Assembly (NCBI GenBank): GCA_016926505.1 | Contig: JAFGOM010000097.1 | Span: 1-64,000, forward strand | Source of the DNA: Methanospirillaceae archaeon | GTDB taxonomy: Archaea > Halobacteriota > Methanomicrobia > Methanomicrobiales > Methanospirillaceae | Length of the DNA stretch: 64,000 nucleotides | Reading direction: 5' to 3' | Shown: one piece after another, positions 16,386 to 30,894 of the stretch | Layout: every line of letters starts with the position of its first letter | How positions within the stretch are numbered: the first letter of the stretch is position 1 | Translations under genes and position numbers: made by a program | The notes under the pieces: model-generated | Told to the model about the DNA's origin: nothing | Database searches by the model: none | Seen by the model: only the letters and a program-made list of their open reading frames with translations

Positions 16386-16391
16386 TTGTCA

Positions 16392-17906
16392 ATGATGGGG
16401 GGGAAACCGGAGTCCGGGCTATCAGAAGTCATCGGATTTCTGATGATTGTGTCGATCCTCTGCATACTCTTCTCTATGTACCTCATCTATGTCGTCCCCA
16501 TTCAGGGCCGCGATGCCGAGATTGCCCATATGACGTATATCAAGACCGAGATGATGGGATTCAAGACCGCAATAGATACAATTATTGCAAATGAGAAGGT
16601 GAATTCCCCGATTGCATCCACCTTTGAACTCTCCACCCAGCCGGGTTCTGCAGAAGGAGCATTCAGCATCCTCCCCCTCTCTTCATTTGTATCCTCAAGT
16701 GGTTCATTGCAGGTGAACCAGAGGAAAGATACTCTAACTATCCGGGTTGGGGGGTATTATGAGAATTACAATCAAATGGTTAATACTAATTATAAATTTG
16801 AAGATCTTTTTACTGGAACAAGAGCTTATCTGAATCTCACTCCCAAACACCTGCTTGTTAATTACACAGTCAATGATCTAGATAATCCAACAACTTTTAG
16901 AATTTCTGCCCATAATTGGACCGCTGATATCAATGTTAAACCACGTTACCTTTTAAATACCAGCGAATTTCTCTTAGGTCAAAACCCCGTATGGACAGAA
17001 ACACAATATGACCTGATAATAAATGTTTCAAAAAACCTTACTCCATTTAATAGCAATGCCTTTTTCCCGACAATTACAAATCTCATAATAAAAGAAAACA
17101 TTAAAGAAGCGGGCAATCCTCTATGTTCTGACCCCGAATGTAATACTACCATTGATCTCTACGATGGAGCATATGGCATTGTTGATGACTTAAAAATAAC
17201 TGATGACGTAGTATTTACTCTTGGATCCGAATCAGAATCATTCTATCTTTCCCACCTGAGAACGCCGTCATACCAGGAACCAGAACCAATCCCAACAATC
17301 AAAAAAACACCTCCTCCTCAACCTCATGACATTGGATCCTTTGAATTTATTTCAGATAACCGGTATTGGATAGAACAGAATTATCTGTATGAGATGGGGG
17401 CTCTGTTCCTCTGGCAGGATGAGGGAAAAACGGTCATTATGGCACCTCCCATCGGACTAACAGTTGATACAGAAGGTAAATTTTATGCAAAAATAACAGA
17501 TATTCAGATAAGTGATGCAGAAGAAGTAGGTGGAACAAGGAGTGTTCAGACCTTTGCTAAAATTGAAAAACTGACGAAAAACGAGATAAGTGGTGAAAAA
17601 CTTACTGATGGACTAAATGCACAGTATGTCTGGATCACCTATGAACCAGATATAGCAGATCCAGAGACGGTAGAGATGTGGAGTAAAGCGTTTGACTGGA
17701 TATATTATCTAGCCACAAAATCAGATGAGAATACGAAAAATTGGGCAAGAACGGTGAATGAATCCACAAAGATTCATTTCATTATCGGGAAAAATGCCAA
17801 TGCTTTTTCTGAACCACTAACTATAACCAATATGGAAGATTATTTCAAAGATGACTTTTATCTTGATTATGTCAATACCTCAATGTCAATAGTGATGCAA
17901 CGATAA
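16392..17906 (+). CDS. Large pilin-like secreted protein with type IV pilin N-terminus
   Basis: The short N-terminus MMGGKPESGLSEVIGFLMIVSILCILF resembles archaeal type IV pilins: a charged leader, Glu five residues into the predicted mature chain, and one hydrophobic helix. The remaining ~470 residues are an extracytoplasmic, Asn/Thr-rich beta region with many N-x-S/T sites and a proline-rich linker (PEPIPTIKKTPPPQP) near residue 300. The start is taken at ATG 16392; a TTG lies two codons earlier. A G7 tract (16397-16403) covers codons 2-4. Base composition drops to AT-rich after about 16755, unlike the first 360 bp. No ectodomain family is recognised. Confidence 0.7.
   Translation: MMGGKPESGLSEVIGFLMIVSILCILFSMYLIYVVPIQGRDAEIAHMTYIKTEMMGFKTAIDTIIANEKVNSPIASTFELSTQPGSAEGAFSILPLSSFVSSSGSLQVNQRKDTLTIRVGGYYENYNQMVNTNYKFEDLFTGTRAYLNLTPKHLLVNYTVNDLDNPTTFRISAHNWTADINVKPRYLLNTSEFLLGQNPVWTETQYDLIINVSKNLTPFNSNAFFPTITNLIIKENIKEAGNPLCSDPECNTTIDLYDGAYGIVDDLKITDDVVFTLGSESESFYLSHLRTPSYQEPEPIPTIKKTPPPQPHDIGSFEFISDNRYWIEQNYLYEMGALFLWQDEGKTVIMAPPIGLTVDTEGKFYAKITDIQISDAEEVGGTRSVQTFAKIEKLTKNEISGEKLTDGLNAQYVWITYEPDIADPETVEMWSKAFDWIYYLATKSDENTKNWARTVNESTKIHFIIGKNANAFSEPLTITNMEDYFKDDFYLDYVNTSMSIVMQR
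16397..16403 (+). repeat. G7 tract at the start of the first pilin-like gene
   Basis: Seven G residues spanning the end of the second ATG and two Gly codons. Gain or loss of one G would shift the frame right after the start. Confidence 0.55.
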
Positions 17907-17917
17907 AAGGTTCACTG

Positions 17918-18442
17918 ATGATGTATTACACTGATGGAGGATTATCTGAGGTATTGGGAGCATTACTGCTCATTGGTATCATTACGACAGGAACAACCAT
18001 ATTTCTCGCGATCTATCTTCCCCAGATTGAGACCCAGCCGAGAGTGTCGGTACATCTGACTACCTGTTGTGAGAGCAGCATTGCCGGTCCGCACGAAGCT
18101 GCGTCAATAAACTGTGTTGAAAGTCTCTTTTATCCATGCGAAGAAGTGGATAGCAATGGACCCTACATTGTCGTTTGCCATGAAGGGGGAGATTCTTTAA
18201 AAAGCGAATATCTTTCTCTTATCATCAATGACCAGAAATTAATGCCTTCAATTACGGGGGATACTCCAGAACTTTTTTCTGTAGGAGAGAGACTCTATGT
18301 AAATATGAAAACATGGGGGATTACACCACCCTTCAAGGTAATAATGGTATATGAACCCCCTGATGGTATTGGTGTGGTACTAGTTGACTGGATGATCCCG
18401 GTATGTACTCCACTGCACCCAATCGCCTGTTGTAAGTATTGA
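17918..18442 (+). CDS. Type IV pilin-like protein (archaeal pilin N-terminal domain)
   Basis: 174 residues starting MMYYTDGGLSEVLGALLLIGIITTG, the archaeal pilin N-terminal domain (DUF1628 kind), with Glu at the +5 position and a hydrophobic assembly helix. The ectodomain has paired cysteines (TTCCES, EEVDSNG region, PIACCKY) that could form disulfides. It starts 11 bp after the previous gene, so they are cotranscribed. Just after its stop, in another frame, a near-copy of the C-terminal segment VVLVDWM is encoded (18443-18490), a sign of a small duplication or frameshift at the 3' end. Confidence 0.75.
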   Translation: MMYYTDGGLSEVLGALLLIGIITTGTTIFLAIYLPQIETQPRVSVHLTTCCESSIAGPHEAASINCVESLFYPCEEVDSNGPYIVVCHEGGDSLKSEYLSLIINDQKLMPSITGDTPELFSVGERLYVNMKTWGITPPFKVIMVYEPPDGIGVVLVDWMIPVCTPLHPIACCKY

Positions 18443-18520
18443 TGTTGTGCTGGTAGACTGGATGAAGGATGAAACACTCTCTCCATAAATATTAATAGTA
18501 CGTTATTGAGAATCATTCCT

Positions 18521-19375
18521 ATGAGCCAAGGGAGACATACAAAGGACAGCGCAGTAACCGAACTTGTCGGGGCAATACTCCTGATTGGGATTGTTGTAAC
18601 CGGACTTGGTCTGGTATCGGTGCTCATGCTATCCCAGCCTCCACCAGATACCTATCCACAGATAGCTCTGTCTGCATATTGCATCCAGTGTGATAAAACT
18701 GATTGCTGCTGCTATGAAGTTTTTATTTATCATGACGGAGGGGAGGCAATCAGCGGGGATGAATTTGTTATTGAGATCGAAGGGATAGATTGTGATGGAG
18801 ATATTGTCAGGGTTGAAAAGACACCACTGTACCGCTACAAAACAGCCCCTCTGACATGCCAGCAGGATGCAACGTTATTTCCCCAATCTGAAGCCCAAGG
18901 AGATGTCTGGAGTTCTGAAATGGAATTGAGAGCAGGAGATACTCTTCGTATACGAGTGGAGTTACAACCAGTCACAATAAGGATCTACTATCAGGAAGGA
19001 TCACGCAGGGTACCACTCCTGATGAGTTCATTTACCAAGATTAATCAAGTCGAAGATTGCATAGGCTATTGTCCAGAATGTCCATCTTACATTCCTCAAT
19101 GTGAAGATATCATCTGTGGCCCTCCATCATGTCCTTCATCAAATGAATGCAGAGCTAAATGCTCATATTACAATAATCTCAGCAGTTCCGTAATAATCCC
19201 TGTCCACAAGGGAGGAAAACCATGGAATATGTTTACGGGAAGTGAATACGATTTAGGACAGCCTGATGAATTTACACCAGGTTTAACGGAATTTACCACA
19301 GAATGCTTTTCAGGAACTATCCAATGGAAAATCAACACCCTGCACAGCCCGGAAGTAAAATGTACCTGTTCGTGA
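18521..19375 (+). CDS. Cysteine-rich pilin-like protein
   Basis: 284 residues from ATG 18521 (an in-frame start lies five codons upstream). The N-terminus SQGRHTKDSAVTELVGAILLIGIVVTG is a type IV pilin signal with Glu +5. The ectodomain is cysteine-rich: CIQCDKTDCCCYE near residue 50, then CIGYCPECPSYIPQCEDIICGPPSCPSS around 180-210 in spaced clusters. The final ~85 residues (VIIPVHKGGKPWNMFTG to CTCS) resemble the C-terminus of the next gene. It probably forms a minor pilin or an adhesive tip protein. The segment 'YHDGGEAISGD' is also shared with the next protein. Confidence 0.75.
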   Translation: MSQGRHTKDSAVTELVGAILLIGIVVTGLGLVSVLMLSQPPPDTYPQIALSAYCIQCDKTDCCCYEVFIYHDGGEAISGDEFVIEIEGIDCDGDIVRVEKTPLYRYKTAPLTCQQDATLFPQSEAQGDVWSSEMELRAGDTLRIRVELQPVTIRIYYQEGSRRVPLLMSSFTKINQVEDCIGYCPECPSYIPQCEDIICGPPSCPSSNECRAKCSYYNNLSSSVIIPVHKGGKPWNMFTGSEYDLGQPDEFTPGLTEFTTECFSGTIQWKINTLHSPEVKCTCS

Positions 19376-19560: not shown

Positions 19561-20715
19561 ATGAAGCATGAATCAGCGGTATCAGAACTGGTTGGAGCCC
19601 TCATACTCGTGGCATTAGTGCTTACGGGAATGGGTGTAATCGGGGTCTCTTTACTTTCCCAGCCTCCGCCGGATACTCGTCCGATGGTCTCACTTGCCAT
19701 GAGCTGTGCATATTGTGATGAAACTGAAGACGAAGACGGGAGATATGTCACTCTGCTCTACCATGACGGAGGTGATCCGGTCATCGGATCTGATCTTGAG
19801 ATCATGGCGCAGATGAATTCTTCAGGAGAACAGAATTTAATTCCGGTAGAACCCACCGGGGTAGCGAGCAGGAGTATTGACTGGTGTTCAGGAGAATGGA
19901 CTAATTGGACCACGTCATCCCGGATGAGTATCGGTGACACCTTAAAAGTGGATATGGATGAGAGACCATACAAGATTATTGTAACCGTCAAGAAGGAGAA
20001 CAGGCGGATCATCGTTATGGATTCTGATGTAAAACACATCAATAATGAGATTTCTGACTCCGGATCCGGAAGTGGTTCATCATCAGGAGGCTCATCTGGT
20101 GGTGGAGACTTTGATGGAGACGGGGATCCTGATGTTAGTGATCCCGATGATGACAACGACGGAATTCCTGATGTTAGTGATCCTGATCCCTATAATCCCA
20201 GTATTCCGGGTGATGAATCAACTACACCAACTGACTACTCCGGTCTGATACCTGTTTATGTTGAGGGAAGCCTGATTTATGGGATTGATGAGCATGACTG
20301 TGAGAATTACTGTGATGGTGACCAGCAGTGTCTTGACGGGTGTAATGATTTATGGGAAGAATGCCTTGAATATGACAAATGCAATGGTTGGGGTTGTGGA
20401 GCTTGCCTGGCCCAATTCTATTATGTCAATAAAGTAGGACAATCAGAAGAAAATCCAGACGGAGTAACCATAACTATCCCGATTCATCAAGGTGGCGATC
20501 ATCTTTGGAATGAATATACAGGTGCTGGATATGTTGGAGGGGAACACAACCAACCGACAATATTCTATCCCACAGATTCTAATGGTATTAGGCTGGACAC
20601 TGGGGAATCAACTAAATTCTGGTCAAAATGCTTCCACAATAACATCAAATGGAAGCTAGCGGATAGCCAAAGTGAGAAGGCAGACTGCAAAGCAAAAAAT
20701 GAAAAATTCACCTAA
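19561..20715 (+). CDS. Pilin-like protein with calcium-binding-type Asp repeats
   Basis: 384 residues. The N-terminus MKHESAVSELVGALILVALVLTG is a type IV pilin signal with Glu +5. After the beta domain there is a Ser/Gly linker (SGSGSGSSSGGSSGGG, about 160-178). Two 13-residue Asp repeats follow (DGDGDPDVSDPDD and DNDGIPDVSDPDP), like thrombospondin type 3 calcium sites. A cysteine-rich part (CENYCDGDQQCLDGC) leads to a C-terminal domain shared with the previous gene (ITIPIHQGGDHLWNEYTG). The Asp repeats are also repeated at DNA level (cctgatgttagtgatcc at 20128 and 20167). It is likely a surface adhesin displayed on a pilus. Confidence 0.78.
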   Translation: MKHESAVSELVGALILVALVLTGMGVIGVSLLSQPPPDTRPMVSLAMSCAYCDETEDEDGRYVTLLYHDGGDPVIGSDLEIMAQMNSSGEQNLIPVEPTGVASRSIDWCSGEWTNWTTSSRMSIGDTLKVDMDERPYKIIVTVKKENRRIIVMDSDVKHINNEISDSGSGSGSSSGGSSGGGDFDGDGDPDVSDPDDDNDGIPDVSDPDPYNPSIPGDESTTPTDYSGLIPVYVEGSLIYGIDEHDCENYCDGDQQCLDGCNDLWEECLEYDKCNGWGCGACLAQFYYVNKVGQSEENPDGVTITIPIHQGGDHLWNEYTGAGYVGGEHNQPTIFYPTDSNGIRLDTGESTKFWSKCFHNNIKWKLADSQSEKADCKAKNEKFT

Positions 20716-20900: not shown

Positions 20901-22361
20901 ATGACAATACAGGTCCTCTTTGTAGATGACGAAGTCGCGCTCCTTCCGGTTGCAAAGGAATTCCTGGAGGATTCAGGCAGCCTTTCGGTCTCTGTTGCAC
21001 GATCAGGAGAAGAAGCACTGGAGTTTCTGCAAAACCACACAGTCTCTGCCATCATCGCAGATTACCATATGCCGGGAATGAGCGGGATAGAACTCCTCCA
21101 GCATGTACGGGAGAAGTACGGTCAGCTCCCGTTTATTCTCTTCACCGGCAAGGGAGAGGAGAGTGTTGTCATCGAGGCACTCAACAACGGGGCTGACTAT
21201 TACATCAAGAAAGGAGACGACCCGAACCAGACCTTCTCAGCCATTGAAGAACGGATAAAAAAGGCGGTGCGGCGGTTTGAAACCCAGGAAGAGATCGCAT
21301 CAAGCCAGAAGATCTACGAGACCATCCAGTCGGTAAAGAAGGACTTTATCCTGCGGCTCACGCCTGACATGAGCATCGTTTCGGCAAACGATGAGTACGC
21401 AGCAACCGCAGGCATCCCGGTCGACGAACTGAGAGGCACTGACTTCTCAGAACAGTTCCGCCCGGCAGACCAGGAACGCCTGGGCAGCTGTATCGCAGCG
21501 CTCACCCCGGATCATGTAACCGAAGCCGTCGAGATACAGAAGATCTCATCTGACGGGTCACCCCAGTGGCAGCGCTGGACCCTGCAGGCGACTTTTGAGT
21601 CAGATAATGAACTGTCCGGTATTCTTGCAGTGGGAAAAGACATCACCGGAATAAAGGATGCCGAGGAGAACCTTCGCAGGCAGGAGGAAGAGTATGTTGA
21701 GCAGGGAGGAGATCTCCCGGTCACCGGGCAGGAGGATGACGAGAACGTCACGCTCAACTTCCTCATCGAGAACACCCCGGCAACGGGTTCATTCTCATTT
21801 TCAGACCTGCTCCCGTATGCAAAAAAGGAGGGGATATCAGGTATCGCTGCTGCACGCACCCTTGAAGGGAACCGTTCCTACCTTATCTTTCAGACCGGTG
21901 AACCGGGAGGAAGCATCTACATTGACCAGAACGGCTCTCTCTTCGGTGACAACTCCCTCTTTTTCATACAGAAATCAGGATCGTTCACATTCCATCCCAT
22001 AAAGGACGACGTTGCTAAAAGACTGATAACCGGGTGCCGCATCTTTGACCATACCCACCTCCACCGCCGGTCTGCAACGATAATCCCTGACATCGGAACA
22101 TCATCACGAAAAGGTCTCGGCAATCTTACCATCACGATAAAACAGAACGGATCCCCAAGCCCGAAAACCCGGGTCACGATAAAGAAAGAAGGAAAGATAA
22201 TCTCAAACGACATGACCTCCCCGGCAGGAGAAGTTCGGTTCTCCCTTCATTTCGGCGAGTACGAAGCGGTCATTCACTCATCCGGACAGATGATTAAGAC
22301 CGATCCCTTCACCTTTGACGAGACCCATACCACAAAATCATTTGATATCGGGGTTCTCTAG
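20901..22361 (+). CDS. REC-PAS signalling protein with uncharacterised C-terminal region
   Basis: 486 residues in order: receiver domain 1-125 (D9/D10, phospho-site D54 in AIIADYHMPGM, Lys in YYIKKGDD); a linker helix; a PAS domain about 145-255 (FILRLTPDMSIVSANDEYAAT to VGKDITGIKDAEENL); a region 280-390 of unknown family (TGSFSFSDLLPYAKKEGISG ... LFGDNSLFFIQKSG); and a beta-sandwich-like tail (LGNLTITIKQNGSPSPKTRVTIKKEG to the end) like small Ig/carboxypeptidase-regulatory folds. There is no kinase or DNA-binding domain. It follows the pilin cluster directly and may sense or relay a surface-related signal. Confidence 0.82.
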   Translation: MTIQVLFVDDEVALLPVAKEFLEDSGSLSVSVARSGEEALEFLQNHTVSAIIADYHMPGMSGIELLQHVREKYGQLPFILFTGKGEESVVIEALNNGADYYIKKGDDPNQTFSAIEERIKKAVRRFETQEEIASSQKIYETIQSVKKDFILRLTPDMSIVSANDEYAATAGIPVDELRGTDFSEQFRPADQERLGSCIAALTPDHVTEAVEIQKISSDGSPQWQRWTLQATFESDNELSGILAVGKDITGIKDAEENLRRQEEEYVEQGGDLPVTGQEDDENVTLNFLIENTPATGSFSFSDLLPYAKKEGISGIAAARTLEGNRSYLIFQTGEPGGSIYIDQNGSLFGDNSLFFIQKSGSFTFHPIKDDVAKRLITGCRIFDHTHLHRRSATIIPDIGTSSRKGLGNLTITIKQNGSPSPKTRVTIKKEGKIISNDMTSPAGEVRFSLHFGEYEAVIHSSGQMIKTDPFTFDETHTTKSFDIGVL

Positions 22362-22725: not shown

Positions 22726-22962
22726 ATGCAAGAGGCCTCCACGATATACATTCGATCAGATGTAAAGGAGCAATTATCTCACTTAAAAACACATCCCCGG
22801 GAATCATACAGTTCAGTGATACAACGACTTTTGTTATGTGCCATTGATCCCGATCCCCTTACATCAGACGAGATAGCAGGAATTGAAGAAGCACTCAATG
22901 ATATCAAAGCGGGGAGGGTTCATACTGAAGAAGAGATCATGACAGAATTCGGGATTATATGA
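22726..22962 (+). CDS. RelB-like antitoxin
   Basis: A 78-residue antitoxin. Its pattern (TIYIRSDVKEQLSHLK, then RESYSSVIQRLL, DPDPLTSDEIAGIEEALNDIKAGRV) is the same as the orphan at 13390, with a ribbon-helix-helix-like start and a toxin-binding tail. It overlaps the RelE gene by 4 bp (ATGA at 22959). Confidence 0.82.
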   Translation: MQEASTIYIRSDVKEQLSHLKTHPRESYSSVIQRLLLCAIDPDPLTSDEIAGIEEALNDIKAGRVHTEEEIMTEFGII

Positions 22963-23225
22963 CTGAGTTTCAGATCATCTACTCAAATAAAGCGAAAAGA
23001 AACCTCAAAAAAATACCATTGCAGATTGCTCAAAAGATAATCAGAGCCATTCATGAACTGAAGAATAATCCCTGGTCACGGGTGCAGAAATTGAAAGGAT
23101 CTGATACGTCTCCGTTTTATTCTCTTCATGTTGGTGGTTACCGGGCCATTCTCTCGATTCAAAACAATAAACTCATCGTGTATGTGGTCGAAGCCGGTTC
23201 CAGGAAAATCATATACCGGAAATAG
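22959..23225 (+). CDS. RelE/ParE-family toxin
   Basis: An 88-residue RelE-type mRNA interferase. Typical elements are FQIIYSNKAKRNLKKIPLQI, IRAIHELKNNPW, VQKLKGSDTSPFYSLHVGGYRAIL and the C-terminal strand KLIVYVVEAGSRKIIYRK, where the basic residues form the ribosome-dependent active site. It is coupled to the preceding antitoxin. Confidence 0.88.
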   Translation: MTEFQIIYSNKAKRNLKKIPLQIAQKIIRAIHELKNNPWSRVQKLKGSDTSPFYSLHVGGYRAILSIQNNKLIVYVVEAGSRKIIYRK

Positions 23226-23234
23226 TGATCTGTT

Positions 23235-23630
23235 ATGGGAAAGGGAATTATTTGCATTACCGACAAATGTCACGTGAATTACTCGGGAGTTACAGGAGTT
23301 CTGATATGGGGATTATTCTCTGTCAGTCTTGATGGGAAAGAGGTCATTGTGGAGTATGAATCTGATAGTGAACTTCGGGATACTGAACAGATCCCCCTTC
23401 TTGAAGAAGGTGGAATTGAGGCATTTATTCAACGGGAGGTCCTTCCCCATGTTCAGGATGCATGGATTGTTGAGAGTGCAACACGGATAGGGTATGAGAT
23501 CTCCTTTACCAGATATTTCTATAAACCACAGCCGCTCCGGAACCTTGAGGAGATTAAGGCAGATATTATAGATCTAGAGAAGGAGACTGAAGGGTTACTG
23601 GACCAGATTCTGGGGATAGGTTCTTGTTAA
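23235..23630 (+). pseudogene. Fragment of a type I DNA methylase (HsdM C-terminus)
   Basis: 131 codons. From about residue 26 the sequence follows the extreme C-terminus of HsdM-type N6-adenine methylases: LFSVSLDGKEVIVEYESDSELRDTEQ, PLLEEGGIEAFIQREVLPHV, IGYEISFTRYFYKPQPLR, then the terminal coiled helix EEIKADIIDLEKETEGLL. The first ~25 residues do not match. The catalytic domain (NPPY motif, SAM site) and specificity partner are absent, so it cannot methylate. It looks like the surviving 3' end of a lost restriction system. It starts 9 bp after the RelE stop. Confidence 0.75.
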
Positions 23631-23672
23631 ATGAGAATGATTTGGGGGAACGTGTGAAATGAACCGTTTAAA

Positions 23673-25100
23673 GTGTTTATCAGTGGAGTACAGAAGGAAT
23701 TAGCCGAAGAAAGACATGCGGTTCGGTCCTTTATTGATGATGATCCTCTGCTTGGAAAATTCTTTTCTGTGTTTTTGTTTGAAGACTCTCCTGCATGTAA
23801 TTCCAGTTCTGAAGAACTCTTTCTTGAAGAGATTGATTCATCAGTGATTTATATAGGGATTTTTGGAAATAGTTACGGTTCAACCGATGATTCCAGTTAT
23901 TCTCCGACTGAGAAAGAATACCGAAGGGCTTCAGAACTTGGAAAATACCGAACTGTGTTTGTGAAGGGGGATGATGATACGACCCGTGATCCAAGGATGC
24001 AGGATCTTATTCACCTGTCTGAACGTGACCTGGTGAGACGCCGGTTTTTCAGTATACCAGAGTTGATTAGCCAGGTATATTCCAGTCTGATAACGTTTCT
24101 AACCGATCAGAAGTATATAAGAACGAAGCCGTTTGATGCCTCTGCTTATCCGGATGCTTCTCTGGATGATATTTCTGTTGAAAAGATTGAATGGTTTCTC
24201 AAAGTTGCCCGGAATGAACGTGGATTTGCTCTTCCAGAAAATAATCCCCCAGTTGATACACTTACTCATCTTAATCTTATGGATGGTAGACAGCCATCTG
24301 CTGGAGCACTCTTGCTCTTTGGTAAAAATCCCCAGCGATTCATATTGCCTTCCGAGGTAAAGTGTCTGCATTTTCATGGAAAGGTTGTAGAAAAACCAAT
24401 TCCCTCATATCAGATTTTTAAGGGAACACTGTTTGACCTGATTGATCAAGCGGTTGATTTTGTCCTTGCAAAGGTAGATAGGAGAGTTATTCCCAGTGAA
24501 AATCAGGTTGCCGGAGAGGTTGAGTATGAGATTCCTCTCAAGGTGATTCGGGAAGCGATTGTAAATGCTGTGGCCCATCGGAATTATGTATCCAATGCCA
24601 GTGTGCAGGTTATGATCTTTTCTGACCGGGTTGAGATCTGGAATCCGGGGTCTCTTCCTTCGGATATGACAATCCAAAATCCTGCTGAACCTCATGCCTC
24701 GATCCCTGCAAATCCACTCCTCTGTGAATCGCTTTTCCTGACCAGATATATTGAGAAGGCCGGAACCGGAACTCTTGATATGATTCGTTTGTGTCGTGAA
24801 AGTAAAATCCCCAAACCCGTTTTCAGACAGGATGGCGGGCAGTTTGTGGTGACGCTGATACGTGAAAGAAATTTCCAGGAAGAACTTATTCAGCTTGGAC
24901 TTTCCAAACGCCAGATTCAATTTTTTACTTATCTTAAAAGGGAAAAGAGAGGCACAAATGCAGATTATCAAGCTGTCACCGGAGTTACCAAGAGTACTGC
25001 TTCCCGTGACCTCAATGTTCTGGTCAAGTCTGGTGTTATCGTAAAGAAAGGGACCACAGGTAAGGGAACATACTACCAGGTGGCTGATCTGTATGAATGA
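23673..25100 (+). CDS. DUF4062 protein with RecG-like ATPase domain and winged helix
   Basis: 475 residues. The N-terminus (FISGVQKELAEERHAVRSFI) is DUF4062. A middle region (LDDISVEKIEWFLKVARNERGF ... HLNLMDGRQPSAGALLLFG) precedes a GHKL-type ATPase domain like the C-terminal part of 'RecG-like' regulators (IPLKVIREAIVNAVAHRNY, then DRVEIWNPGSLP). A winged helix closes the protein (TNADYQAVTGVTKSTASRDLNVLVKSGVI). The GTG at 23673 is the only start near the family N-terminus; the preceding in-frame codons read NEPFKV directly after a TGA, so the usual first residues lack a start. Proteins of this architecture lie near restriction systems; the role is unknown. Confidence 0.78.
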   Translation: MFISGVQKELAEERHAVRSFIDDDPLLGKFFSVFLFEDSPACNSSSEELFLEEIDSSVIYIGIFGNSYGSTDDSSYSPTEKEYRRASELGKYRTVFVKGDDDTTRDPRMQDLIHLSERDLVRRRFFSIPELISQVYSSLITFLTDQKYIRTKPFDASAYPDASLDDISVEKIEWFLKVARNERGFALPENNPPVDTLTHLNLMDGRQPSAGALLLFGKNPQRFILPSEVKCLHFHGKVVEKPIPSYQIFKGTLFDLIDQAVDFVLAKVDRRVIPSENQVAGEVEYEIPLKVIREAIVNAVAHRNYVSNASVQVMIFSDRVEIWNPGSLPSDMTIQNPAEPHASIPANPLLCESLFLTRYIEKAGTGTLDMIRLCRESKIPKPVFRQDGGQFVVTLIRERNFQEELIQLGLSKRQIQFFTYLKREKRGTNADYQAVTGVTKSTASRDLNVLVKSGVIVKKGTTGKGTYYQVADLYE

Positions 25101-25774: not shown

Positions 25775-26797
25775 TTAGACCATGAACCGGAATACCACCC
25801 ATGCCATGAGAAGCATGATAATTGAATACTTAAAGCCGGCTGTTATCCTCCCTTCACCCATCACCCCTGCGGCAAGACCAGAGAAGAAACCCTGAAACAT
25901 TGCCGCATGGGAGAAGATCCTGATGTAGAGGTTGAGATCAAACCCTCCGAGATTAAAACCGGCTGCACCGGCAGATCCCCCGCTATCGGTACCAAGGGTC
26001 ACCATCGTCTTTAAAAAAGCACTCACCAGAACATAGATAACAAATAAAAAGACTGCGAATGCGACAAGAATGATGATAACATAGATGATCATGTTATTCT
26101 TCCGGTCGGTCTTGAGCGAGACAAACTCTAAGGAATCACGTGCAGCAGCCTGAAGCACCTCGACGATATCCCCACCGGCCTCAGTCGCACGGGCGATAAG
26201 ATCAACGGACCGTTCCATGAGCGGGTTATGCAGATCGCTTCCCATCGCCTTGATAGCGTCGATAAACTGAAAATTCCATGACATCTGGTAATCAAGCTTC
26301 CGGACATAGGGGGTAAGTGCTCCGTACTCACTTCCTGATATCAGGTGAATTGCCCCGGGGAGCGTCATCCCGCTCTCACGCATCCCGGCAATATCACGGA
26401 AAAAGTTCGGGAGGGCGTACTCAATGCTGTTTACCCGCATATTCTCACGAAGATCCAGGATGGCAAGCGGGACGACCGCAATAAAGAGCGAGGTGAGGAT
26501 GACATCATCAATAAACATCGACGTCAAAAGGGAACCGATACCTCCTGAGAGAACCGCAACGAGAAAACCATAGACAAAGACGATAATCGCGATAGGGCCT
26601 GATAAAAGCATAATGTTTACCGGCTTTTCCGTCAGGAACTCAACCGGATGAAGGATAAGCCGGTACATCCCGGTTGAGTACTTCCGCCGCCGCAGGATCC
26701 GCTCCATGATGACCTCATCTTCACGATCTTCAGGAGTTGTCACCAGATCATAGCCCGATATGGTCTCCTTTTTCTTCTTTTTTATCGAGAGATCCAT
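25775..26797 (-). CDS. Type II/IV secretion platform protein F (second copy)
   Basis: A 340-residue membrane protein of the GspF/TadC family, the inner-membrane platform for pilus or pseudopilus assembly. It has a cytoplasmic N-terminus, hydrophobic segments near 55-110, a large cytoplasmic T2SSF domain (RDIAGMRESGMTLPGAIHLIS ... RATEAGGDIVEVLQAAARDSLEF) and three or more C-terminal membrane helices. It is the last gene of a three-gene operon, one base after the other F protein. Two F proteins with one ATPase is the usual arrangement for archaeal systems of this type. Confidence 0.88.
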   Translation of the reverse strand: MDLSIKKKKKETISGYDLVTTPEDREDEVIMERILRRRKYSTGMYRLILHPVEFLTEKPVNIMLLSGPIAIIVFVYGFLVAVLSGGIGSLLTSMFIDDVILTSLFIAVVPLAILDLRENMRVNSIEYALPNFFRDIAGMRESGMTLPGAIHLISGSEYGALTPYVRKLDYQMSWNFQFIDAIKAMGSDLHNPLMERSVDLIARATEAGGDIVEVLQAAARDSLEFVSLKTDRKNNMIIYVIIILVAFAVFLFVIYVLVSAFLKTMVTLGTDSGGSAGAAGFNLGGFDLNLYIRIFSHAAMFQGFFSGLAAGVMGEGRITAGFKYSIIMLLMAWVVFRFMV

Positions 26798-26798
26798 C

Positions 26799-27731
26799 TC
26801 ACACCTCCGGGGTCATGGCATCGATGAGAATAATGAACATAACACTCGCAAACGGGATAATCAGGTAGATGATTACGTACAGAAAGATAGGAGTCGCCTC
26901 ACCATTGAGGATAGACATAACCGACTGCAAAAGAATTAAAAAGAGACTCCCTGCCACTACCGCAGTAACATAACTCTCTGCGATAAGGGCCAGGGTCTCT
27001 AAAAACTGTTTCTGCGTCTGCCGGTTCTCATAGCTGTACTGTTCAGACTTCAGCTTAAAGTAGTTCGAGATGTCACTACCACTCGCAATACTCGCAATAG
27101 CACCCTGCAGGAAATCGCGCATCCGTGAACTCGGGGTGGTCAGGGAGACTGATTTGAGCGCTTCAAGCAGATCCCTGCCAAAGATATCGACCTCTAACGT
27201 GATGTACCGTGCTTCAATTGAAGCCTCCCCGTAAATCGAGGATTTCCCGAGCTGGCGTATCACCTCTGCCGGGGTGATCCCGGCCGTTGACATGGCGGCA
27301 AGGTAGTTGATGGCATAGGGAAGTGATGCATCGATATTGCGCTTTCGCGACCCTGCCACCATTGATGGATAGAAGAGGAATCCGGCGTAGGTAATTCCGA
27401 AAAAAACAATAAATGCAAGGAGAAAGGCGATAGCCGTCCCGAATATCAGTTTGTATTCCGCAAGGGCATTTAACGCAGACCCGACACCGCCTAAGTCACC
27501 CCGGTACGTCACATACTGCGGGATGTTGATAAGATAGGTGATGAGTCCGGCGATCAAAGCACCGAGAATACCTGCGATAGCTGAACTGATGATGATTGTT
27601 GAGAGATACGCCTCGAAGGGAGTCTTCATCCTTGCGGATTTCAGACTCTCAATTAAGGTAAAGTACTTCTCCCGCTTGTTCTTGACACTCCTCCCGAGGA
27701 GCGAGTAACAGAACCGCTCATAACTGTTCAT
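26799..27731 (-). CDS. Type II/IV secretion platform protein F (first copy)
   Basis: 310 residues, T2SSF family. Hydrophobic segments lie around 45-70, 93-120, 260-285 and 285-305, with a cytoplasmic loop containing SLPYAINYLAAMSTAGITPAEVIRQLG and FGRDLLEALKSVS. It overlaps the 3' end of the ATPase gene by 14 bp. It probably pairs with the second F protein to form a heteromeric platform driven by the ATPase. Confidence 0.88.
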   Translation of the reverse strand: MNSYERFCYSLLGRSVKNKREKYFTLIESLKSARMKTPFEAYLSTIIISSAIAGILGALIAGLITYLINIPQYVTYRGDLGGVGSALNALAEYKLIFGTAIAFLLAFIVFFGITYAGFLFYPSMVAGSRKRNIDASLPYAINYLAAMSTAGITPAEVIRQLGKSSIYGEASIEARYITLEVDIFGRDLLEALKSVSLTTPSSRMRDFLQGAIASIASGSDISNYFKLKSEQYSYENRQTQKQFLETLALIAESYVTAVVAGSLFLILLQSVMSILNGEATPIFLYVIIYLIIPFASVMFIILIDAMTPEV

Positions 27732-29622
27732 GCTGACCAGACCGGACCTTATCCATTACGCTCTCAGGATCCCTGAAGTAGGAGACAATGATATTGCTCA
27801 CCTCTGCAAAATCACGCATTTTATTGACCCGCATCCACTCAAGCACTTCCTGCCTCTGAAGCAGATCCCGTGTTATCCGCTCTTCGTCCCATCCCTTCGC
27901 CTCCATGATCTCTTCTAAAATAAAGGACTTTCCTGAGTACATGATCTCGTCACTGACCTGCCGCCATTTAAAGACCTCGTTCGTGATAAGTTCATTGGTT
28001 CTCGGATCAATATCGAGAATCTCGATTATCTGCTTGTTTCTTCGTATCCGCTGACCTCCTATCTGTGCCTGGACCTGCACACTCACGAGATCGAGAGCTG
28101 ATAACATGTTTCGCGGAACTGACAGGGGAGGATTCTCAATACGGTGAACCACACTGGCGACCGAGTCTGCGTGCATGGTTGAGTACGTGACGTGACCGGT
28201 GCTCATCGCCTGAAAGAGGGTCTGGGCTTCGCGGCCACGAACCTCACCGACGATCAGGTACTCGGGCCGCTGACGAAGGGCCGCCTTTAACAGTTCGTAC
28301 ATATCGATCTGCCCCCGCCCCCCGACATCAAACGTCTCGCGGGTCACACTCGGGATCCAGTTCGGGTGCGGCAGCTTCAGCTCACGGGTATCCTCGATAG
28401 AGACGATCTTTGCAAGCGGCGGGATAAAGAGCGAGATAGCGTTTAGTGACGTCGTCTTTCCTGAAGCGGTCCCGCCGGCAAAGATACAGGACTTCCCGCT
28501 CTCAACGGCAAGCCAGAGAAATGCAATTGAAAGCGGAGAGAAGGTTCCCCATTCAATGAGATCGGTCGGAGTAATCGGCTCATCACGGAACTTCCGGATA
28601 GTAAAGGTTGACCCGTGTGCAGTCACCTCGCTCCCGAGAGACATCTGGATACGCGACCCGTCCTTCATCGTGGCATCGAGAAGCGGTTCAGCGACTGATA
28701 TGTGTTTCCCTGCCCTCTGGGCGAGTTTTGTCACAAAAGAATCAAGATCGTGGGGATCATTGTAGATAAGGCTGGTCTTGACTGACTCGTACCGGGAGTG
28801 AAACACGAAAATAGCCTTCCCGACCCCGTCACAGGAGATATCCTCGATGTACTTGTCATGCATGACCGCATCAATGAGACCGTCACCGAGGAAATCCTTG
28901 TTCAGCTGGTAAAATATCTTTTCATACTTGCGGGGAGACAACTTTATCCCGTAATCAGAGAGGATCTCGTTCATCATCTGTTCAAGGGTCAGCAGCGCCT
29001 TCTCGCTTGTGATATCATGTACATTGACATCCACACGCTCAAATATCCCTTTCTTTAACTCCTTTAGCAGTTCATGATCAGTTGCGGTCAGGGTTGGTTC
29101 AAGGACCTGGTACAGATACTCATGGAGGTCATAATTGTAGGTAATCCTGATATAGGCATACGGCTCCTGGACCGGGTACATCTCGATCTCCTCGACACCC
29201 GTGGGAGGGGAATACGAGAGATCAACAAGCTGCCCGTGCACGTTCACATCGTACTTCTCACGCTTCTTAAAGACCGGGGCAATCTGTTTTAATTTTGCGA
29301 GAAATCCACCTTTTTTTTCCGGGTTATCAGGATCTGCGAGTGCGGCATCGACAGGCTCACCTGATGGTTTCTTCCCTGAACCGGGAGTCCGGTGGGGAAG
29401 GATATTTTTCTTTCCCGCTGCAATCCCTGTTTTTTCTCCTTTCCCCTGCGGTGAGAAGGTACCGGAAACACGGGAAGAAACAGAACCGGTATCCCCCCCT
29501 CTCTTCCCGTCAAGATCCGGGATCTCCATCTGGTGAAGGGAAATATCACTATCATCTACCTTTAAGAGATCAACGACATCAGTCTCGGTAGCTGGTTTTT
29601 TCCCACGAAGTTGTATCTTCAT
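27718..29622 (-). CDS. Type II/IV secretion ATPase (GspE/TadA/FlaI family)
   Basis: 634 residues, the motor of a pilus-like system. Residues 1-110 are a low-complexity cytoplasmic extension. The N-terminal domain and core follow: Walker A GGTASGKTT (about 383-391), the Asp box IEDTRELKLPHPNW, Walker B PEYLIVGEVRGREA (about 451-464) and the His box STGHVTYSTMHADS. The frame is complete with an ATG at 29622. It heads an operon with two F-type membrane proteins. The pilin-like genes at 16-20 kb are the obvious candidate substrates; no prepilin peptidase is in the window. Confidence 0.93.
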   Translation of the reverse strand: MKIQLRGKKPATETDVVDLLKVDDSDISLHQMEIPDLDGKRGGDTGSVSSRVSGTFSPQGKGEKTGIAAGKKNILPHRTPGSGKKPSGEPVDAALADPDNPEKKGGFLAKLKQIAPVFKKREKYDVNVHGQLVDLSYSPPTGVEEIEMYPVQEPYAYIRITYNYDLHEYLYQVLEPTLTATDHELLKELKKGIFERVDVNVHDITSEKALLTLEQMMNEILSDYGIKLSPRKYEKIFYQLNKDFLGDGLIDAVMHDKYIEDISCDGVGKAIFVFHSRYESVKTSLIYNDPHDLDSFVTKLAQRAGKHISVAEPLLDATMKDGSRIQMSLGSEVTAHGSTFTIRKFRDEPITPTDLIEWGTFSPLSIAFLWLAVESGKSCIFAGGTASGKTTSLNAISLFIPPLAKIVSIEDTRELKLPHPNWIPSVTRETFDVGGRGQIDMYELLKAALRQRPEYLIVGEVRGREAQTLFQAMSTGHVTYSTMHADSVASVVHRIENPPLSVPRNMLSALDLVSVQVQAQIGGQRIRRNKQIIEILDIDPRTNELITNEVFKWRQVSDEIMYSGKSFILEEIMEAKGWDEERITRDLLQRQEVLEWMRVNKMRDFAEVSNIIVSYFRDPESVMDKVRSGQHEQL

Positions 29623-29830
29623 TTCTTATTCCCGGGAAGAGGATTCATCTGACGGGATATCTCCGAAAACCGTTCGGGATACCAGTGCAGACATAACCCC
29701 CCGATGAGTCTGCATTCCATAACATGACCGGTATCAGATGCTTTCTGCTGTAAATACTAATTACAACATACATCATATAACACTATTGCTATATCGTTCC
29801 CATACAGGTACGAGAGGAATATGAATACCT

Positions 29831-30448
29831 ATGACAGAGCATGATGACATATTGGGCGAGACCATCCCAAAGAGGAGACCGAACACGACCGGAATTAGTG
29901 GTCTTGATCTTGCCCTTGATGGTGGATACCCTGCAGGAACAGTCATTCTCCTTATCGGTTCAGCCTGCTCAGGGATAGAATACTTTGCAAACCAGTTCTG
30001 GCGTGCAGGAAAGGGAAAGAGGGAGTTGTTGATGATCGACGGATACCTTGAGGAAGGAATGGTTGATGCACGATTCTTAACCCCGGATCAGATCTTTCTC
30101 CCCGGGGAAGAGTCGGGTATCATCATCGACTCCCTCTCAACGATTATCCTGCAGTATGGAATCGAGCCGGTTCTTGAAGGGATCGATTTTACCCGTGAGA
30201 ACGCCCGGCAGTCAGGAGATCATGCATTCTTCATCCTGTATAGCGGGATGCACGATACATCAACCGAGATAATCCTGATGCGGCGTTCGGATATCGTTAT
30301 ACAACTCCATGAGCAGATGCATGGATCAGAAGTAGTACGAATTCTTGAGATAAAGAAGATAACCGGATTCCCGCTTCCGAAAAGGGCGTTGCCATTCCTG
30401 ATACGGGCCGACGGCATCGAGCTCTCGACCACCTCGCGGGTAGTATAA
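29831..30448 (+). CDS. KaiC/RecA-like protein with degenerate Walker A
   Basis: 205 residues of the RecA/KaiC superfamily: it opens with TTGISGLDLALDGGYPAGTVILLIG, the KaiC/RadA entry pattern. The P-loop reads GSACSGIE (43-50) instead of GxxGxGKT, so the nucleotide-binding Lys and Ser/Thr are lost. The Walker B strand is kept (SGIIIDSLST), followed by an arginine-rich end typical of the fold. It diverges from the secretion ATPase with about 210 bp between starts. FlaH, its relative in archaella, works beside a FlaI-type ATPase, so a structural, non-hydrolysing partner of the neighbouring motor is plausible. Confidence 0.78.
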   Translation: MTEHDDILGETIPKRRPNTTGISGLDLALDGGYPAGTVILLIGSACSGIEYFANQFWRAGKGKRELLMIDGYLEEGMVDARFLTPDQIFLPGEESGIIIDSLSTIILQYGIEPVLEGIDFTRENARQSGDHAFFILYSGMHDTSTEIILMRRSDIVIQLHEQMHGSEVVRILEIKKITGFPLPKRALPFLIRADGIELSTTSRVV

Positions 30449-30480: not shown

Positions 30481-30894
30481 TTAAAGCCAGTCAAATGAGT
30501 CATTTTCTCTCTTCTCCCGTATCTTTGAATCAATTCTCTTTTCTTCCTGCATCTGTGAGAAACGGGTGTTAATATCAGCAAAATCGATAGCAGGCACGGA
30601 TCCGTCTTTATCTATCGGCTGTTCACTGGCCCAGATAATCCCGGATTCGCCGGTAGATCCGGGTTCCTCCGGGGTGGAATCATCGGTCTGCACAACTCCG
30701 GGAAATGCCTGCAGGGGGTCGGAATCCGCATCCTGCATCGGGAGCCCTGACAATACAAAACCCTCACTTCCTGGCTCTTTCCCGGAAGAAGGAGACATTT
30801 TTGTCTGTTTGAATAACAGGTAGTCAACATAATCCTCGACCTCAACCCTCAGTGCCGGATGGAGTCGGGTAATCTTTTCATATAATCTCATCAT
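30481..30894 (-). CDS. Hypothetical protein with DUF2281-like start
   Basis: 137 residues. The first 30 (MMRLYEKITRLHPALRVEVEDYVDYLLFK) look like the helical DUF2281 motif found in small antitoxin-like proteins. The middle is acidic, Pro/Ser-rich and probably disordered; the end is a charged helix (FSQMQEEKRIDSKIREKREN). There are no membrane segments. Its start overlaps the aldolase stop, so it is the last gene of the aldolase operon. Its function is unknown. Confidence 0.6.
   Translation of the reverse strand: MMRLYEKITRLHPALRVEVEDYVDYLLFKQTKMSPSSGKEPGSEGFVLSGLPMQDADSDPLQAFPGVVQTDDSTPEEPGSTGESGIIWASEQPIDKDGSVPAIDFADINTRFSQMQEEKRIDSKIREKRENDSFDWL

Follow-up and report, generated by a model that had tools for sequence, protein, structure and literature searches.

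Known KaiC-fold partners of archaeal motors

A closely related, described system is the archaellum motor, in which the KaiC-fold protein ArlH (FlaH) is encoded together with the secretion ATPase ArlI (FlaI) and the platform protein ArlJ. ArlH requires its Walker A motif in order to bind nucleotide and FlaI, and the exchange K39A in this motif of P. furiosus FlaH strongly weakens FlaI binding (PMC6011876). ArlH stimulates the motor; once ATP is bound it can contact ArlI, and it is released by autophosphorylation (PMC8978795). For the transition of the archaellum motor from assembly to rotation, the ATP switch of ArlH is the leading hypothesis (PMC8978795).

Links between KaiC proteins and pili are published as well (PMC4858521), and Makarova et al. 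(2016) list KaiC families that are co-transcribed in Methanomicrobia with VirB11/TadC. The same authors describe euryarchaeal (clade 2) type IV pilus motors with a VirB11/TadA-type ATPase and two tadC-like genes. Inactivated KaiC domains (iKaiC) have been reported from archaeal signalling proteins (PMC5847659, citing Makarova 2017), where the KaiC superfamily domain is judged inactive and in most cases forms part of a larger protein with receiver or other domains. The general theme has thus been described before.

A pilus motor divergent from a KaiC-fold gene

The window analysed here comprises 64,000 nucleotides (contig JAFGOM010000097.1, assembly GCA_016926505.1) of a Methanospirillaceae archaeon with a genome of 2.9 Mb. 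This organism is a close relative of Methanospirillum. The minus strand carries a motor cluster, E1-F1-F2 (25775–29622), and the plus strand a divergently oriented KaiC-fold gene, here called K (29831–30448); a search of genome contigs with the K protein gave one named match, in a Methanospirillum sp. MAG. E1 (27718–29622) is a type IV pilus/type II secretion ATPase of 634 amino acids (Pfam T2SSE, 1.2e-32) with the intact Walker A motif GGTASGKT. The platform proteins F1 (26799–27731) and F2 (25775–26797) match the N-terminal and the C-terminal half of ArlJ-type models, respectively; both are T2SSF proteins, with Pfam E-values of 7.6e-14 and 2.7e-14 for the two. The starts of E1 and K are separated by 208 bases (29623–29830), and the same divergence is found in Methanospirillum.

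As read from the sequence, an ATPase with intact Walker A and two adjacent T2SSF proteins make up an assembly motor of the T4P/T2SS type. Against the curated ArlI model E1 scores 407 bits, below the cut-off of 550; the E1-F1-F2 cluster encodes a type IV pilus motor distinct from that of the archaellum. Its composition resembles, by description, that of the clade 2 motors, and near E1 in relatives a MinD/FleN ATPase is found as in the account of that clade (Makarova et al., 2016). In contrast to clade 2, the motor of the window lineage no longer lies in the MinD/Roadblock neighbourhood and has come to stand beside K.

Four pilin-like genes on the plus strand lie 5–13 kb from the motor, the closest one about 9 kb from K. 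The first (16386–17906; 506 amino acids) has the pilin-like N-terminus ESGLSEVIGFLMIVSIL and a weak Pilin_N match; the others lie at 17918–18442 (Pilin_N 2.7e-4, below cut-off), 18506–19375 (1.8e-10) and 19561–20715 (2.6e-11). They are followed on the same strand by a response regulator with PAS domains (20901–22361). The C-terminal part of this protein lacks a Pfam match and is similar to a free-standing protein whose gene immediately precedes E1 in many relatives; the response regulator is possibly linked to the motor. A first-pass annotation had described a non-archaellum ATPase with two platform proteins, divergent from a KaiC-like protein with the P-loop GSACSGIE and accompanied by nearby pilin-like genes. 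The open reading frames, strands, Pfam matches and the ArlI score agree with this description.

Between response regulator and motor (22959–25100) lie a RelE-like toxin gene, assigned by eye, and a DUF4062/helicase-type gene. No match to the latter was present in the loci from Methanospirillum, which points to an insertion. On the far side of K, 30481–30894 encodes a poorly conserved VapB-antitoxin-like protein without adjacent VapC; this gene is retained between K and a class II aldolase-like gene in 4 genomes.

K as a retained pseudo-ATPase

K has 205 amino acids and matches PF06745 (4.3e-11; 43 bits against a cut-off of 26.6), which places it in the KaiC superfamily. Its profile matches KaiC structures and, among solved structures, fits KaiC and single-domain archaeal KaiC better than FlaH. 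A low-confidence structure model (mean pLDDT 50, built from only two sequences) is likewise closest to KaiC and lends weak support to the fold.

GSACSGIE occupies residues 43–50 of K, at the Walker A site. The first-pass annotation had taken this motif as a lost Walker A, and the family bears this out: none of the 47 members from the order has the Walker A lysine, which has mostly given way to Leu, Ile or Val, and in 46 of them an acidic residue (Asp or Glu) occupies the Ser/Thr position. Distant homologues across the phylum (about 230–270 amino acids) also lack the lysine, mostly have an acidic residue at the Ser/Thr site, and retain an R-V-L tail. The loss is thus old, and its conservation across the order rules out sequencing error or chance. 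Near-invariant among the 47 order members are G43 (46/47), G48, the Walker-B-type D100, H141, R151, D154, K176 (46/47) and the tail ELSTTSRVV; this conservation argues against a decaying pseudogene. Judged by these patterns, K is a retained pseudo-ATPase and presumably biochemically inactive. It combines the KaiC fold with the family-wide Walker A loss by which iKaiC is defined; unlike most iKaiC domains described, K stands alone, and its distribution follows a pilus motor.

Relation to ArlH and to the KaiC pair of a second motor

The first-pass annotation had proposed a FlaH-like protein and asked for a phylogeny relative to FlaH. K reaches 25 bits against the curated ArlH model, far from the cut-off of 215, and the true ArlH of this genome (259 bits) is encoded outside the K locus on another contig, C83, so that K as the genome's own FlaH is ruled out. 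In a KaiC tree of 65 rows ArlH forms its own clade (support 100/99), with K outside it. A single clade of K and ArlH was nevertheless not rejected (AU p = 0.50); orthology with ArlH is not supported, and a sister relation is compatible with the tree. K forms its own clade and groups moderately with K2a, a degenerate KaiC protein beside a second pilus motor, the two sharing one side of a branch supported at 93/87. K likewise does not track the archaellum, as one genome (G032) has K and E1 and no ArlH above cut-off, and three (G001, G019, G027) have ArlH and neither K nor E1.

K and ArlH both keep a Walker-B-type Asp and the conserved Lys, and both have a short C-terminal tail that closes with a basic residue and Val. 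ArlH differs in that it binds ATP and has an intact Walker A, which in these genomes reads GENDTGKS. The C-termini of K, K2a and ArlH (SRVV, IRVVI, ARV/AKV) share this tail, and other sampled KaiC proteins differ. In the E1-less genome G003 the tail of K is eroded (VELSTSIFIV instead of IELSTTSRVV), which suggested docking of the tail specifically on E1. Since a related tail is also present on K-like proteins from f9 genomes that lack E1, such docking is not claimed.

The second pilus motor, on contig C83 of the same genome (L131:7138-10944), has a fused double platform protein. Divergent from it are K2a, with the degenerate P-loop GEIGAGNR, and K2b, with the intact GMYGTGKT, in overlapping frames; this arrangement is kept in sampled Methanomicrobiales. 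K2a and K2b are probably the KaiC families listed with VirB11/TadC in Methanomicrobia by Makarova et al. (2016). K2a resembles K in its divergent position at a pilus motor, its degenerate P-loop and its place in the tree. Unlike K, it is about 280 amino acids long, keeps its own acidic residue one position further on, stands beside its motor in all loci read, and is paired with the intact K2b.

The lysine of the KaiC KxR motif acts in trans. K176 of K aligns with this residue and is kept in 46/47 order members and in 15/15 distant homologues. This may suggest that K joins an ATP-binding KaiC protein (K2b or ArlH) in a mixed ring, where it would be the non-catalytic subunit, supply K176 in trans and so link the pilus motors, and the dead K2a and intact K2b in overlapping frames would provide a template. 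However, an intact KaiC gene is absent beside K, K2b is retained in genomes that lost K, and the conserved lysine may be structural. We therefore regard a mixed ring as improbable.

Gene neighbourhood

K lies divergently beside E1 in 10/10 genomes of the window genus and Methanospirillum that have both genes. Adjacency recurs in 2/2 genomes of the distant family f11 (L202, G283), with K at the opposite end of the E-F1-F2 cluster, and was not seen in sampled genomes outside these groups. Conservation of the pair in other genomes, a check named by the first-pass annotation, holds for joint presence in many genomes (see below), whereas broad conservation as neighbours is rejected outside the window genus, Methanospirillum and f11.

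K comes after an acyl-CoA synthetase gene in most members of the order, near CDC48, AspRS and MetE-like genes (named by eye); at this site in Methanospirillum K is absent. E1-F1-F2 elsewhere lies near a MinD/FleN-type ATPase, Roadblock/LC7 proteins and an apparent A24-type prepilin peptidase (by eye). These separate neighbourhoods indicate that both partners moved before meeting, and K and the motor genes were united at least twice, independently. Further associations were noted. The gene hisI and a PIN-domain ATPase gene also occur around the E1 motor of most relatives (L151-L170) and adjoin K in Methanosarcinaceae-like genomes (L193-L200). In Archaeoglobaceae-like genomes (L204, L205, L206, L196) a Cgi121-like gene (KEOPS subunit, by eye) follows the K-like gene, with MCM adjacent in two.

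K and the motor could be chance neighbours that share a locus without functional link, as the genes lie far apart in all other sampled Methanomicrobiales. Against this, adjacency and orientation persist through two genera despite a K identity of only 52–58% between them, the pairing recurs independently in f11, and the two genes co-occur strongly. Mere chance is already disfavoured by these data, and we consider it very improbable.

Co-occurrence of K and E1

With a loose cut-off K homologues are found in 54/61 relatives, a few of these being generic KaiC matches. At E 1e-12 they are present in 175/219 Methanomicrobiales. Across these 219 genomes K and E1 occur together in 163 and are both missing in 37; K alone is found in 12 and E1 alone in 7, i.e. 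19 discordant genomes. Fisher's test gives p = 2e-24, a value that ignores relatedness and is inflated, as the losses cluster by clade (genera g29, g6 and g2). In three of the E1-positive genomes lacking K the acyl-CoA synthetase is missing too, which points to assembly gaps. By a hand count at genus level, restricted to variable families, 20 genera have both, 7 neither, and 1 is discordant.

The Methanosarcinaceae-like family f8 repeats the pattern: 22 genomes have both and 11 neither (33/33 concordant). E1 was identified here from its place in the tree in sampled genomes and from the match score in the remaining ones. One f8 species (G232) lacks both although its congeners have them. Taken together, at least four joint losses of K and E1 can be inferred. 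The acyl-CoA synthetase is retained in g29, g6 and g2 despite the loss of K and E1, and a tie of K to its usual neighbour is therefore disfavoured. The second motor and its own KaiC genes are also retained in genera without K and E1, where examined. That K and E1 are kept or lost together in relatives suggests that K is probably a dedicated motor helper.

Exceptions exist. K-like proteins are frequent in the Archaeoglobaceae-like families f9 and f31, yet most of the motors of these families are placed outside the E1 clade, and in some genomes a distant motor is the only one; one f9 row on a long branch (L267) fell inside the E1 clade, with unsure placement. G003 and G129 have K and lack E1; G273 and G278 are also discordant, one in each direction. 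Together with the K-like proteins of f9 and f31, these genomes suggest that the ancestral role of K may have been wider than E1.

Such a role could be that of an inactivated KaiC signalling or adaptor protein, general in Halobacteriota, which would affect surface structures indirectly (by expression or as a signalling hub) and would not touch the motor. The E1-less K-like proteins of f9 and f31 fit this idea, as do the varied neighbours of K (acyl-CoA synthetase, hisI with PIN-VirB11 ATPase, MCM, Cgi121) and the precedent of inactivated KaiC domains in archaeal signalling proteins. However, K is lost selectively with E1 while its genomic neighbours stay, and it has been paired with a motor twice independently. 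A general adaptor thus appears possible, though rather unlikely.

Proposed role of K

Based on this dataset, we hypothesize that K is a nucleotide-independent KaiC-fold helper of the non-archaellum motor E1, probably for assembly, and give this about an even chance. Most likely, in analogy to ArlH on ArlI, K would dock on the E1 ring from its cytoplasmic side. It would support pilus assembly without ATP binding or ATP switching; lacking the ATP loop, it would act as a fixed clamp, suited to a filament that needs assembly alone. An ATP switch of the ArlH type is unusable by the sequence of K, which favours nucleotide independence. Docking on E1, ring formation, independence of nucleotide and an assembly function, as opposed to a regulatory one, are what we infer for K.

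A helper of this kind is in line with the fixed P-loop loss in an otherwise conserved protein, the co-occurrence in two large groups, the two pairings and the distinctness from ArlH. The layout of the second motor with the KaiC-like K2a and K2b, and the ArlH precedent, may support it by analogy. On the other hand, adjacency is limited to two lineages, K-like proteins occur without E1 in f9 and f31, and discordant genomes exist. The K39A result also weighs against it: as this exchange weakens FlaH-FlaI binding, a FlaH-like dock without that lysine would need another binding mode.

The first-pass annotation had proposed a new variant of pilus machine, an interpretation that is partly supported. 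The co-occurrence of a pseudo-ATPase, as judged by sequence, with a non-archaellum motor stands, and the word new overstates the case in view of the earlier accounts (PMC4858521, PMC5847659). The accessible parts of the published accounts of the KaiC-pilus theme mention neither motor-linked members whose ATP site is permanently lost nor a motor-specific co-occurrence. As a tentative and rather doubtful extension, pilus motors of Halobacteriota could generally be built with dedicated KaiC-fold subunits dead in ATP binding (K for E1, K2a for E2, the second motor), acting as fixed assembly clamps or as donors of a trans residue, with ArlH as one variant.

For Methanomicrobiales and Methanosarcinaceae-like archaea, the co-occurrence offers a lead to the function of a conserved unnamed family. 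A KaiC-fold motor partner lacking the ATP site would be a natural built-in control for the question of the ArlH switch. If K binds and supports its motor without nucleotide, the ATP switch of ArlH would be tied to rotation or regulation, and not to assembly itself.
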